12,187 nt of DNA from the NCBI GenBank assembly GCA_014896635.1, contig JADBKA010000136.1, forward strand, positions 1-12,187, written 5' to 3'. Both the position numbers and the translations under genes were made by a program. How positions within the stretch are numbered: the stretch's first letter is position 1; each line of letters begins with the position of its first letter. The notes beneath the pieces were generated by a model that did no database searches, was not told the origin of the DNA, and saw nothing but the letters and a program-made list of their open reading frames with translations. Positions 3,335 to 8,955 of the stretch are shown in pieces. This stretch comes from Ktedonobacteraceae bacterium. Lineage in GTDB: Bacteria > Chloroflexota > Ktedonobacteria > Ktedonobacterales > Ktedonobacteraceae.

Positions 3335-4159
3335 TTAGTGTCTGATACCTCGGACGATGATTTCTGCGATTGCCAGAAAGGCCAGGTCGAGCGCGAGCAG
3401 CACGAGCAGAGCGAAGTCAATACGCGAGGCTATAAAAGTTGCAATGGTGAGTACCTGAGAAAGTCGCTGGAAGTACCAGATCAGGAAAAGGGCAATGAGC
3501 AGCAGGAGTGTGAGGCCCAGAACGAACCAGCGCGCACCTCGCCAGTCCTGGCGGCTTGGCCAGAGTTCGGAGGTGACGGTCAGCAGGAGATAAGGCGCAA
3601 AAAGTAGCGTCCACCAGGGCCAGCCGGGCCGCAAGATTTGCAAGTAATTGCGCGCGGTGTCGATGGGGAAGTCCCACAGGTTGTAGCCCGTTGCCACCCA
3701 GTAGAGGAGCAGAACCATCGCAGTGCCACCAAAAAGCGGCGCAATCCCGCTGATCCCATCTCCTATGTAACTTATGAGACGTCCTTGCGGGCGCACATAT
3801 TGCACCTCACCCAGTTGCAGCGATTGTCGTCCACCACTGCGCATGATGCGTCCATTGGGTGCTCGCTGCACTACCGGTTTAATGCGAAAGAGAGTGATAC
3901 TGGTGATGCGAAAACCGAATGGGCGCAGGAGCAGTACCGCCAGTGCATGGCTTAGCTCATGTAAAATCACACCGGGCGCATTGAGCCAGAACCAGATGAG
4001 CAGTCCACGCTCGCGCATCAGGCGATAGCCAATTTCGTCAACGCGCTGGCGCAAACTCTTACGCGATAGGCGTAGCAGAAAGAAGAGGACGAAGACTCCG
4101 GCGATTACCAACCAGGGTTGGTATGGTGCGATCTGAGCGAGAAGTTGTGTATCAGACAT
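3335..4159 (-). CDS. M50-like integral-membrane zinc metalloprotease
   Basis: This 274-residue membrane protein has HELSH (67-71) inside a hydrophobic helix (LIWFWLNAPGVILHELSHAL), the active-site arrangement of site-2-protease-like (M50) peptidases: two zinc-binding histidines and the catalytic glutamate E68. Further conserved-looking elements are GIAPLFGG (138-145) and TSELWPSRQDW (196-206), whose acidic residue D205 could be the third zinc ligand. About six hydrophobic segments are visible, near 16-30, 52-78, 135-157, 180-198, 210-230 and 248-268. A soluble loop of about 45 residues (93-130) separates the active-site helix from GIAPLF. There is no PDZ domain, so this is not RseP/SpoIVFB-like in architecture, and the substrate is unknown. 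It starts from ATG 4159 behind a good promoter and is followed after two bases by the P-loop kinase gene. Confidence 0.75.
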   Translation of the reverse strand: MSDTQLLAQIAPYQPWLVIAGVFVLFFLLRLSRKSLRQRVDEIGYRLMRERGLLIWFWLNAPGVILHELSHALAVLLLRPFGFRITSITLFRIKPVVQRAPNGRIMRSGGRQSLQLGEVQYVRPQGRLISYIGDGISGIAPLFGGTAMVLLLYWVATGYNLWDFPIDTARNYLQILRPGWPWWTLLFAPYLLLTVTSELWPSRQDWRGARWFVLGLTLLLLIALFLIWYFQRLSQVLTIATFIASRIDFALLVLLALDLAFLAIAEIIVRGIRH

Positions 4160-5913: not shown

Positions 5914-8592
5914 CTAACGGAAAGTCCCGACGACCTGTTTTAGCCTGATGACATTTTTCCCATTCTCTCCTCGCTCGATGGCCAGGATCACAATTGCTTT
6001 ATCCACCGGGTTTCCTTGACTATCGAAAAGAATGCGACCACTAACACCCTGGAAAGGAGGGATATTGCCCTTTCCTAGAGAAGCCAGAGCATCGCGGACA
6101 CTCTGACCCGTGATGTTCTCAGGGGTGAGGGTGATGGCTTTCACCAGCACCTGAACAGCATCAGCCGTTAATAGCGCATCGTTGCCCGGTGGCGGTGCCT
6201 GGTTGGCTGCAATAGCTGAACTTTGATAAACAGCAGCCCAGGTGGCGAAGAAGGTCGGTTGCTGAGATTGTGGAATTTGTAAAAACGCCCACTCGTTGGG
6301 ATCGCCGAAGGATGTGCAGATCAGGCGGCGCATATCTTGCGGGTATGCTGCGGCAATCTGCGCGTCTGCTCCCTGGCCCTGGCCCAGTACAAGCGCGGTT
6401 GCCAGGCCATCACCGCCGAGAATGGAGAGGTTGGCGAGCGCGGTACTGGCGGGTTCAGCCCTGGCGGCATTACCCAGGGCATGCGCCAGGCGAACAGCAT
6501 CAACGTCAAAACCGGCGATGAAAATGAGATCTGCTTCGTTTGCCAGTGCATCCTGCACGACTTTGTGAAAGCCTTCCACCGTTGTCGTTGAGGTAGTAAA
6601 ATAATCGCTAGAGCTATTAATCACTCTGGCGCCCAGACGTCTGGCACTGGCAGTGAAGGAATCGGCCAGCGAGACACTGTAAGGTTCAGTAGGATCTCTG
6701 GTGACAAGAATAGTCTTTGCCTGCAACTGCTGTACTGCGACTTTACCCAGCGCCTTGCCCTGCTGGTCATCAGCCGGGTTAACGCGAAAGAAGTAGGGAC
6801 TGCTCCCGCTGAGTTTCACGCTTGAAGCTGTCTGGGAGACCAGCGGTAGATGAGCGGAGGCAATGATATCCCGCGCATTGATTGTTTGCGAACTGAAAGG
6901 CCAGCCGACTACTCCGATGATATGATCGGAATTACCTGCCTCGGTAACTCGCCGGGCGATAAGTTGCGCGACGGTTGCCACATCTGCGCGATCAGAGCCG
7001 GCGCTGGCAATGAGAAGGCGTAATTTGAGGCCATGAGGAAGCAGGTTATTTTTGTTGACTTCATGCTGGATGATGAAGGCTGCCTGCGTGTCTATCCGTG
7101 CCCGCAGGAGATCGACAGCATCTTTATCAAAGGCGAGGCCAAGCACGATAGTGATATAAGGCGCTTTACTTTGTAGCACATGTACATTTTCGTTATAGAT
7201 CTGAGCCTCTCCATCTGTCGGGTCCATATCAACTGCTTTCGTAAGGAGATTCACCGCATTCGCCAGATCCGCCTGCTGAATGGCGTGGGCTGCCTGCTGT
7301 TTCAAGACGACGTTGCTGCGTCCAGGGTAGGTGTCGAAGACGAAGCGCCCATCGCTGATACCGATGCCCTTCTGTGTAAAGAGTTGTTGCTCGTGCGCCA
7401 GTTCCTGTTGAAAAATAGCCTGTTGCCGTGCTCCTTGATTGAAAAACAGAAAAAATAGAAGCGGAATGAGGAGGAGACAGAGAGCGAGACTCGCAAAAAG
7501 TATGGTGATTGTTGATGCACGAGAACGAAAAAAGCCATATTTCTTTTTTGAAGAAGAGAGAGCCGCCAGTGGTGGTGCAGGAGTAGCGGGAGTGGCAGGG
7601 GAATGAGCGGAGGATTCCTGGTCAGGCGAGGAGTAGGTTGGGAGGAGGGCAACCAGATCCGCCTGCATGTCAGCGGCTCTATGATACCGTTCTGAAAGTG
7701 TCAGGCGCAACTCCTTAGCAAGAATGGCCTCCATGCGCGGCGAGACTGTGGGATTGAGACGGCGTGCTGGCGGATAAAAAAAGCTCATGCGCTCGTGTGG
7801 ATCATAGCCGGTGACAGCATGATGAAGGATGGCAGCAACGGTATAGAGATCAGAAGTGGGACCGGGTGGTCCTGATCTTTGTTCGGGCGCCCGGTAGCCG
7901 GCCAGCGCCCAGTTCGCTGATTGTGCGGGCTTCTCATGGGTGTGCAACGGGAGATGGATCAGCGATACGCGATTTGTGTCAGGATGTATAACGACCGTTT
8001 CAGGAGAAATCGAGCCATGTACGAAGGGAGGATGTTGGCGAGCAAAAAATGCCAGAATGCCGCAGAGTTGCTGCCCATATTCCGCAACAAGTGGTTCGGG
8101 CAGGGCGCCCCCTTGTTTTTTGAGCAACGCGGCAAGGCTCTCCCCTTGTATATATTCAAAAACAACGTAGGCTCTGGACCATTCGCTGAAAGTGTCCAAC
8201 ACATCCGGTATTGCCGGATGTGATCCTACCTGTTTCAGCCGTTTGATGAGCTGGCTCATGTAGTCCTGGTGCAGTGAACCTGTTTCCGGTGTGTACGGTA
8301 TCTCGCGGATGAGCACACGACGATTGTGCTGCGCGTGGTCGATTGCTATCCATGTCATCTCCTGTGTACCAGTGTTTGTGCTGATGGGTAGCGTTCCTAC
8401 AACTGAGTAGCGTCCCTGCTGGAAGGTCAGGCTTCCCTTTGGGGGACCGGCGTCGGTGGTCAGAACAACTTTTCGCTGAAGCGTGCCGCTTTTTTTGGCG
8501 GGGTGTGATGTGGCATCAGTGATTCTGTAGCCGCATCGTTTGCATCTTTGATCCTGCGAGCTGATCTCTGCGTGGCAACGAGGGCAGTGCAT
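5914..8592 (-). CDS. Zinc-ribbon pseudokinase with single TM helix and extracellular type-1 periplasmic-binding receptor domain
   Basis: This is an 892-residue multidomain protein. Residues 1-24 form a zinc ribbon with C3, C6, C17 and C20. Residues 60-318 form a Ser/Thr-kinase fold whose catalytic residues are replaced: the VAIK lysine is R96 (VLIREI), HRD is H192-G193-S194 (HGSISPETVVI), and DFG is H213-L214-P215. The structural motifs APE (235-237) and the following D248 are kept. A Pro/Ser/Ala linker leads to basic residues and one membrane helix at 361-384. Residues 386-475 look helical, with one TPR-like unit. From about 478 to the end is a type-1 periplasmic-binding domain of the branched-chain amino-acid receptor kind, with IVLGLAFDKD, IIGVVGWPFSSQT, PLVSQTASS and SPYFFRVNPADDQQG. 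Ligand sensing outside and pseudokinase signalling inside is inferred. ATG 8592 is chosen because GGGGAGG precedes it and the zinc ribbon starts there; the frame itself is open to 8697. Confidence 0.85.
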   Translation of the reverse strand: MHCPRCHAEISSQDQRCKRCGYRITDATSHPAKKSGTLQRKVVLTTDAGPPKGSLTFQQGRYSVVGTLPISTNTGTQEMTWIAIDHAQHNRRVLIREIPYTPETGSLHQDYMSQLIKRLKQVGSHPAIPDVLDTFSEWSRAYVVFEYIQGESLAALLKKQGGALPEPLVAEYGQQLCGILAFFARQHPPFVHGSISPETVVIHPDTNRVSLIHLPLHTHEKPAQSANWALAGYRAPEQRSGPPGPTSDLYTVAAILHHAVTGYDPHERMSFFYPPARRLNPTVSPRMEAILAKELRLTLSERYHRAADMQADLVALLPTYSSPDQESSAHSPATPATPAPPLAALSSSKKKYGFFRSRASTITILFASLALCLLLIPLLFFLFFNQGARQQAIFQQELAHEQQLFTQKGIGISDGRFVFDTYPGRSNVVLKQQAAHAIQQADLANAVNLLTKAVDMDPTDGEAQIYNENVHVLQSKAPYITIVLGLAFDKDAVDLLRARIDTQAAFIIQHEVNKNNLLPHGLKLRLLIASAGSDRADVATVAQLIARRVTEAGNSDHIIGVVGWPFSSQTINARDIIASAHLPLVSQTASSVKLSGSSPYFFRVNPADDQQGKALGKVAVQQLQAKTILVTRDPTEPYSVSLADSFTASARRLGARVINSSSDYFTTSTTTVEGFHKVVQDALANEADLIFIAGFDVDAVRLAHALGNAARAEPASTALANLSILGGDGLATALVLGQGQGADAQIAAAYPQDMRRLICTSFGDPNEWAFLQIPQSQQPTFFATWAAVYQSSAIAANQAPPPGNDALLTADAVQVLVKAITLTPENITGQSVRDALASLGKGNIPPFQGVSGRILFDSQGNPVDKAIVILAIERGENGKNVIRLKQVVGTFR

Positions 8593-8598
8593 ACATTT

Positions 8599-8605
8599 CC
8601 TCCCC
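8599..8605 (-). promoter_or_regulatory. Ribosome binding site fixing the pseudokinase-receptor start at 8592
   Basis: GGGGAGG on the minus strand ends six bases before ATG 8592. An in-frame start 35 codons upstream (8697) would place the two leader stem-loops inside the coding region and add residues with no domain similarity, so it is rejected. Confidence 0.75.
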
Positions 8606-8745: not shown

Positions 8746-8955
8746 TTATTCCTCTTCTGTGATCATTTTGCGCGGCAAGCGTTGTTTGATCCGGCGTTCA
8801 ACTTCGGAACGTGGGAGCAGAACACGCCGTCCACATTTTTCGCAGCGCAGACCAAGATCGGCTCCTAGGCGAACGACTTCCCAGTCGTAGCTGCCACAGG
8901 GGTGTTGTTTACGCAGCCGTAGTCGGTCTCCCAATTCAAAATGCATCGGCTCCAT
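8746..8955 (-). CDS. DUF951 family small zinc-binding-like protein
   Basis: This 69-residue protein matches the DUF951 pattern: a start of the form [16 protein letters not shown] with HPCG at 18-21, W25-E26-V27, GADLGLRC with C38, then [16 protein letters not shown]20, C38 and C41 may bind metal. The family is common in Firmicutes and Chloroflexota, has no established function, and is often found near translation or cell-division genes. Its ATG lies 15 bases after the nadD stop on the same strand, so the two are probably co-transcribed. An internal ATG three codons in (8946) is an alternative start. Length is typical for the family and there are no membrane segments. Confidence 0.85.

Follow-up and report, generated by a model that had tools for sequence, protein, structure and literature searches.

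The locus examined here raises the question of what a bacterial transmembrane receptor can do with a kinase fold that seems to have lost the means of phosphorylation. The window, that is, the whole stretch of 12,187 nucleotides analyzed from a Ktedonobacteraceae bacterium, carries on its reverse strand a gene (5914..8592, including the stop codon) that encodes a protein of 892 residues and starts at the ATG at 8592, preceded by a good ribosome-binding site (GGGGAGG at 8599-8605). The protein begins with a Cys4 zinc ribbon (residues 1-25; C3, C6, C17, and C20; 8518..8592), which scores below the Pfam cut-off for Zn_Ribbon_1 and whose four positions are Cys or gap among the 120 homologues listed. 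It continues with a kinase-fold domain (residues 57-320; 7633..8424) that has the bilobal fold of PknB-type Ser/Thr kinases and looks catalytically dead by sequence, and with a stretch (residues 324-360) modeled as a low-confidence linker. Next come a single transmembrane helix (residues 364-382; 7447..7503), located by a hydropathy script within a modeled helix spanning 361-408 and preceded by a basic stretch; an extracytoplasmic TPR-like hairpin (411-474; 7171..7362; modeled helices at 428-474), which an alignment of 15 receptors finds in the output types that it covers and which by profile weakly resembles consensus TPR chains; and an ectodomain (residues 479-888; 5929..7158) with the two-lobed LivK fold of LIV-type, type-1 periplasmic solute-binding proteins. 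These features all lie on the reverse strand. Given the basic stretch before the membrane helix, the lack of a hydrophobic segment at the N-terminus in the hydropathy script, and the domain types themselves, the kinase part is predicted to be cytosolic and the binding part external.

Loss of the catalytic residues is uniform among the homologues. R96 (8305..8307, reverse strand, as are all positions below) replaces the VAIK lysine, a residue found in 0 of the 120 homologues listed; HGS (192-194; 8011..8019) replaces HRD, with Asp at 194 again in none of the 120; and HLP (213-215; 7948..7956) replaces DFG, with D213 in 2 and P215 in 119 of the 120. Where active Hanks-type kinases have the VAIK Lys, HRD Asp, catalytic Asn, and DFG Asp, the protein therefore reads R96, S194, T199, and H213. 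The alpha-C glutamate has likewise given way to R118 (8239..8241), which is Arg in 82% of 119 pseudokinases, the same position being Glu in 98% of 112 active-type kinases, of which 111 are intact at each catalytic position. E237, D248, and R302 are invariant across the 120 pseudokinase homologues listed. The homologue lists used here hold the best 120 of 196, 380, and 1012 matches, with about 8000 candidates scored per search. Such a pattern marks the loss of the motifs as a family trait and not as decay, and the window protein is, as far as sequence can tell, a conserved and constrained pseudokinase that forms a new branch of a known receptor architecture. The preliminary description had reported both the three replaced motifs and the combination of Cys4 ribbon, kinase fold, one membrane helix, and external binding domain in a single protein, and both hold; features beyond it are the TPR-like hairpin, a stand-alone pseudokinase-membrane gene, and the occurrence of the ectodomain on HTH, HTH-NB-ARC, TIR, CHAT, and AAA-TPR proteins.

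As for the input, Foldseek, VIA, and profile comparison place the receptor model nearest to the structures of LivK and LivJ, with metabotropic glutamate receptor ectodomains close as well; because matches to the binding domain took up both lists for the full-length model, a separate model was made of the kinase part. Alignment to LivJ of E. coli MG1655 in three modes matches S567 and S590 (segment 6823..6894) to S79 and T102 and Y638 (6679..6681) to Y150 in all three, D728 (6409..6411) to E226 in two (A715 in the third), and F695 to Y202. E226 is presumably a ligand-contacting position; D698, tried as the ligand of the ammonium group, was dropped in view of the match between E226 and D728. A docking study reports LivJ S79, T102, Y150, and Y202 as isoleucine contacts (PMC6983066). 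Among 120 pseudokinase-family receptors, 120 active-family receptors listed, and 14 receptors with swapped outputs, the residue is conserved in 98, 100, and 100% at S567, in 98, 99, and 100% at S590, in 96, 100, and 100% at Y638, and in 93, 100, and 100% at D728. The ectodomain thus has the amino acid-ligating pocket of LIV-type binding proteins, with D728 assigned in two of the three modes, and the near-invariance of S567, S590, Y638, and D728 across pseudokinase, active, and swapped-output receptors makes an alpha-amino acid or a near analogue the likely ligand. The earlier designation of the external domain as an amino acid-type binding domain is supported by these pocket positions and by the similarity to LivK and LivJ. 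The F695 position varies: most pseudokinase receptors have F, L, or Y there, and 99% of active-family receptors have Y, so that side-chain preference perhaps differs between the two groups.

The ectodomain was found in 39 of 47 genomes (E-value threshold 1e-15) from the class of Ktedonobacter sp. SOSP1-85, which we take to be Ktedonobacteria. A phylum sample of 301 genomes gave 35 (threshold 1e-10), 33 of them also drawn in the class search and two beyond it (G095 and G206). From 38 of the 39 class genomes, 113 receptors or pieces were collected, with one duplicate row (L068) dropped and six matches left out (G011:C319, G037:C484, G043:C341, G034:C273, G035:C192, and G001:C1:505877). They comprise 22 pseudokinases (here defined by loss of the Lys and both Asp), 38 intact kinases, 10 partly degenerate forms, and 43 proteins without a recognizable kinase part, several of which are cut by contig ends. 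The pseudokinase receptor occurs in 22 of the 38 genomes, in exactly one copy each, and the intact active paralogues in 26. Among the matches taken, 16 of the 38 genomes have active receptors and no pseudokinase, so the latter is not indispensable. Tandem clusters (L072-L076 and L079) combine active with partly degenerate receptor kinases that read HGDIKPTN with NLL, NLI, or NLM for DFG, apparently a separate loss of catalysis.

Two quick trees, one of the kinase part rooted on a single outgroup kinase and one of the ectodomain rooted at its midpoint, describe how these forms are related, and the direction of change depends on those roots. In the kinase tree, all 29 pseudokinase rows (15 window-type, 3 stand-alone, and 11 from other class genomes) form one clade (support 100*), within which the 18 window-type rows form a narrower one (98*). 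The pseudokinase clade sits within the active receptors and adjoins the degenerate Thermogemmatispora tandem copies, a placement in which long branches may mislead. Homologues with intact motifs, which had been named in advance as evidence against a dead receptor, do exist as paralogues (38 proteins in 26 genomes) but fall outside the pseudokinase clade. The ectodomain tree, of 96 rows, has two sides. One (99*) contains every one of the 26 pseudokinase receptors and, besides them, 7 HTH, 7 HTH-NB-ARC, and 1 HTH-NB-ARC-TPR receptors, and the HTH and HTH-NB-ARC receptors are nested among the pseudokinase ectodomains (97* and 95*), as would be expected if the kinase part were an output module; one genome (G040) carries a pseudokinase-type ectodomain on HTH-NB-ARC. 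The other side (99*) holds the active kinases with TIR, zf-HC2-like, CHAT, AAA-TPR, and Zn-ribbon-only forms. With the sensor kept constant and the cytosolic part differing from form to form, the latter would seem to behave as an output module.

Several individual outputs deserve mention. TIR domains above the Pfam TIR_2 cut-off are fused to the same membrane helix and ectodomain in three proteins (L104:526-2892, L132:1427-3796, and L131:424-2673), whose domain composition marks them as membrane receptors with an immune-type effector inside. A CHAT protease-like domain stands on the same ectodomain type at L119:439-3261, and HTH plus NB-ARC (STAND NTPase) receptors of the pseudokinase ectodomain clade include L140:425-3556 and P0130-P0132, P0134, P0136, P0137, and P0139. 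Receptors at L112, L093, L096, L097, and L106 constitute one ectodomain group; in the three that were scanned (L112, L096, and L106), the N-terminal part weakly resembles zf-HC2, the anti-sigma zinc finger, below the Pfam cut-off.

The reading we favor, at a probability of roughly 0.6, is that this gene encodes a one-gene receptor for an alpha-amino acid or close analogue, in which closure of the binding domain is relayed to a dead kinase fold acting as a conformational adaptor. The external LivK-like Venus-flytrap would close on amino acid binding, the TPR-like hairpin and single membrane helix, probably in a dimer, would relay closure inward, and the non-phosphotransferring kinase fold would then dock onto or allosterically set a partner, for which an active Ser/Thr kinase or a regulator is the likeliest candidate. 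We infer the amino acid ligand, the dimer, the absence of phosphotransfer, and the partner; signaling most likely proceeds by conformation or docking and not by phosphorylation. The receptor of this soil-type bacterium appears to sense external amino acids and to signal to a kinase fold that seems to be without chemistry. More tentatively, at a little under even odds, it would belong to a Ktedonobacteria-wide modular receptor superfamily in which a conserved amino acid Venus-flytrap, TPR hairpin, and single membrane helix are retained and outputs are swapped among active Ser/Thr kinase, pseudokinase, HTH regulator, HTH-STAND NTPase, TIR, and CHAT, the pseudokinase form, one per genome, signaling purely by conformation as an independent bacterial parallel to the receptor pseudokinases of plants and of the HER3 type.

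In HER3, the ligand is bound outside, a dead kinase fold lies inside, and output is by allostery. By analogy, the window receptor might be a co-receptor that heterodimerizes with an active paralogue of the same architecture, switching it on or off, a possibility we consider somewhat unlikely. Ten of the 22 pseudokinase genomes do possess an active paralogue whose domains follow the same order; plant receptor pseudokinase domains pose the question of non-catalytic co-receptor activation (PMC11259431), and the M. tuberculosis MviN pseudokinase is described as dimerizing back-to-back, as some active bacterial kinases do (PMC12599244). However, in the other 12 genomes none of the matches taken is an active paralogue with all motifs intact (one genome, G042, has two partly degenerate ones), so that such pairing, possible only in the 10 genomes with both forms, cannot be general. 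Moreover, pseudokinase and active ectodomains lie in separate clades (99* each, midpoint root), and a shared ligand or hetero-interface is therefore not implied.

It is rather improbable that the fold is not dead and performs unusual nucleotide chemistry, in the manner of WNK, with its displaced Lys, or of SelO, which transfers AMP. The two basic residues R96 and R118 are frequent, and the relevant sections of a recent review describe pseudokinases with new chemistry, such as SidJ and SelO, and some K-to-R pseudokinases that bind ATP (PMC12599244). Against such chemistry, both metal-binding positions are lost in the alignment, the catalytic Asn position 199 being T in 111 of 119 pseudokinases and the DFG Asp position 213 being H, Y, L, or F in 106 of 119, and the activation loop, compared with that of the active relatives, is shorter by four residues. 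R96 and R118 could still help hold a nucleotide, which we count against the conformational adaptor, as we do the DFG Asp kept by 2 of the 120 homologues.

A receptor serving solely as a decoy or dominant negative, to titrate its ligand or partner, would fit the 10 genomes in which one copy occurs alongside active paralogues, yet this explanation carries little probability. The cytosolic domain has fixed positions of its own, found in pseudokinases only (W81 98%, G162 100%, C177 95%, P215 99%, F272 99%, and M287 99%), and it is kept where there is no ectodomain. Five Thermogemmatispora genomes encode a stand-alone protein of 373 residues (8001-9122 in L007-L010 and 4209-5330 in L006) consisting of zinc ribbon, pseudokinase, and membrane helix, which ends at the membrane, shows the same catalytic substitutions, and scores 28.8 bits against Pfam Pkinase, below the cut-off of 31.7. 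By the Nei-Gojobori method, applied separately to kinase part and ectodomain, the kinase-part dN/dS is 0.03-0.08 in ten pairs of these stand-alone genes and 0.06-0.14 in ten pairs of full-length Thermogemmatispora genes; the pseudokinase part is under purifying selection. Also counted against the favored adaptor reading are the lack of a sensor in the stand-alone form and, in a little-diverged Ktedonobacter pair (L001/L004), the weaker constraint on the kinase part (0.29) than on the ectodomain (0.10).

Very improbable is a membrane-tethered substrate-binding protein feeding an ABC importer, with the kinase part merely as anchor. The ectodomain is homologous to LivK/LivJ, and PF02653 permeases are present in the full lists of all 22 pseudokinase genomes. 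However, the linkage to LivH/M-type permeases that characterizes ABC substrate-binding proteins is absent: the window contains no ABC permease, as had been noted before, and in none of the 22 genomes does the contig with the receptor carry a PF02653 permease less than 60 kb from it, at least ten of these contigs being short, the nearest standing about 63-65 kb away (G041 and G006). Nor would an importer explain a stand-alone form without a binding domain or the same ectodomain fused to HTH, TIR, CHAT, and STAND domains. Permease linkage, proposed earlier as the sign of transport, is loosely present only for the stand-alone Thermogemmatispora form, where a PF02653 pair lies 8.6 kb away with other genes between in all three genomes examined (G005, G006, and G007), which may be plain genus synteny; ectodomain-only short receptors of this genus lie 17-18 kb from a permease. 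A role in ABC transport was rejected on the absence of linked permeases in the window and over the 60 kb on either side that the contigs, many of them short, allow. An operon partner was also ruled out, as the window and ten related loci (L001-L010) share no ORF of at least 60 aa outside the receptor locus; one distant neighbor, 29-33% identical, is common to the Ktedonobacter and Thermogemmatispora loci. Promoter-like sites number 3 against 2.6 expected in the scan, and terminator-like sites 1 against 3.6, figures that carry no information. Simple decay of the gene, suggested by the lost motifs and by the partly degenerate tandem copies in Thermogemmatispora, is hardly credible and was ruled out by dN/dS, given purifying selection and conservation across the class.

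Among known systems, the closest in architecture is the active form itself, which already bears the NCBI product name 'bifunctional serine/threonine-protein kinase/ABC transporter substrate-binding protein' (P0186 and P0260). It joins a kinase fold and a LivK-like domain in one chain in the same bacterial group, and the relatives checked also have the zinc ribbon and one membrane helix in the same order; unlike the window receptor, its kinase motifs are intact, and it stands apart from the pseudokinases in both trees. Of the 'undescribed signaling architecture' claimed in the preliminary description, the domain order, which a search recovered with an active kinase in 26 of 38 genomes, is therefore not new, but the pseudokinase branch is, in that neither it nor the swapped outputs of the receptor were found described in the open-licence literature. 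The window receptor has a known architecture, of which the pseudokinases are a new and constrained branch, and it belongs to a larger family of receptors with swapped domains.

A 2025 review recognizes seven bacterial pseudokinase families, experimentally largely unexplored (PMC12599244). A word search of its text gave no occurrence of Chloroflex, Ktedonobacter, periplasmic, substrate-binding, or extracellular, none of the seven families as described in the sections available combines these motifs with this ectodomain, and assignment to a published family was rejected against those descriptions. MviN/ActPs3 is likewise a bacterial transmembrane pseudokinase with three motifs lost, which recruits a partner instead of phosphorylating, but it is described there as mainly actinobacterial, with an activation-loop deletion as hallmark and, in M. 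tuberculosis, a carbohydrate-binding domain where the window receptor has an amino acid-type domain (PMC12599244). Compared by description with that hallmark, the window family has lost the motifs and shortened the loop by four residues; MviN is absent from the best 50 structure matches of the kinase-part model, which has no bearing on kinship. ActPs2 and DYD pseudokinases share the Lys-to-Arg change and are often membrane-associated, and DYD proteins also miss the alpha-C Glu, but both are reported from other phyla; ActPs2 has HRD Asp changed to Asn and a DFG deletion, where the window protein has HGS and HLP without deletion, and the DYD motif at the DFG site is absent here (HLP in P0001, with P third in 119 of 120 listed) (PMC12599244).

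Class C GPCR ectodomains such as that of mGluR share the Venus-flytrap fold and profile similarity with the window receptor and differ from it in membrane part and output. The nearest working analogue, by comparison of components, would be GlnH-GlnX-PknG, whose GlnH presumably belongs to another binding-protein class than the window's ectodomain. As in the proposed mechanism, an amino acid-sensing solute-binding protein is reported to control, from the other side of the membrane, a kinase-fold protein in the cytosol (PMC6069109; PMC8546545), but that system consists of three separate proteins with an active kinase, as against one chain with a dead-looking kinase (PMC6069109). The plant receptor pseudokinase EFR (PMC11259431) works like the proposal, with external ligand, dead kinase, and allosteric output. 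Common descent of the architecture with eukaryotic receptor pseudokinases is not implied, the window receptor having a bacterial type-1 binding domain.

The family combines a defined candidate input with a constrained dead-kinase output; 10 genomes supply internal controls in the form of active paralogues, and the output is naturally swapped on the same sensor. The standing question of how signals pass through a dead kinase fold therefore becomes testable in a free-living bacterium that is not a pathogen. The TIR, CHAT, and STAND versions suggest, in addition, membrane nutrient receptors wired to immune-type effectors. Elsewhere in the window, an AAA_16-TPR gene occupies 1-1960, its AAA part matching the end of the profile only; the first 168 bases, in another frame, presumably resemble the end of a SARP-type DNA-binding region and end in two stops; this is possibly a broken regulator. 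A 274-residue membrane protein without Pfam match (3335-4159) carries HELSH (HExxH) adjoining a hydrophobic segment and is perhaps an intramembrane metalloprotease. Finally, a DUF951 protein of 69 residues (8746-8955, above the Pfam cut-off) is encoded between the receptor and a gene for nicotinate-nucleotide adenylyltransferase.
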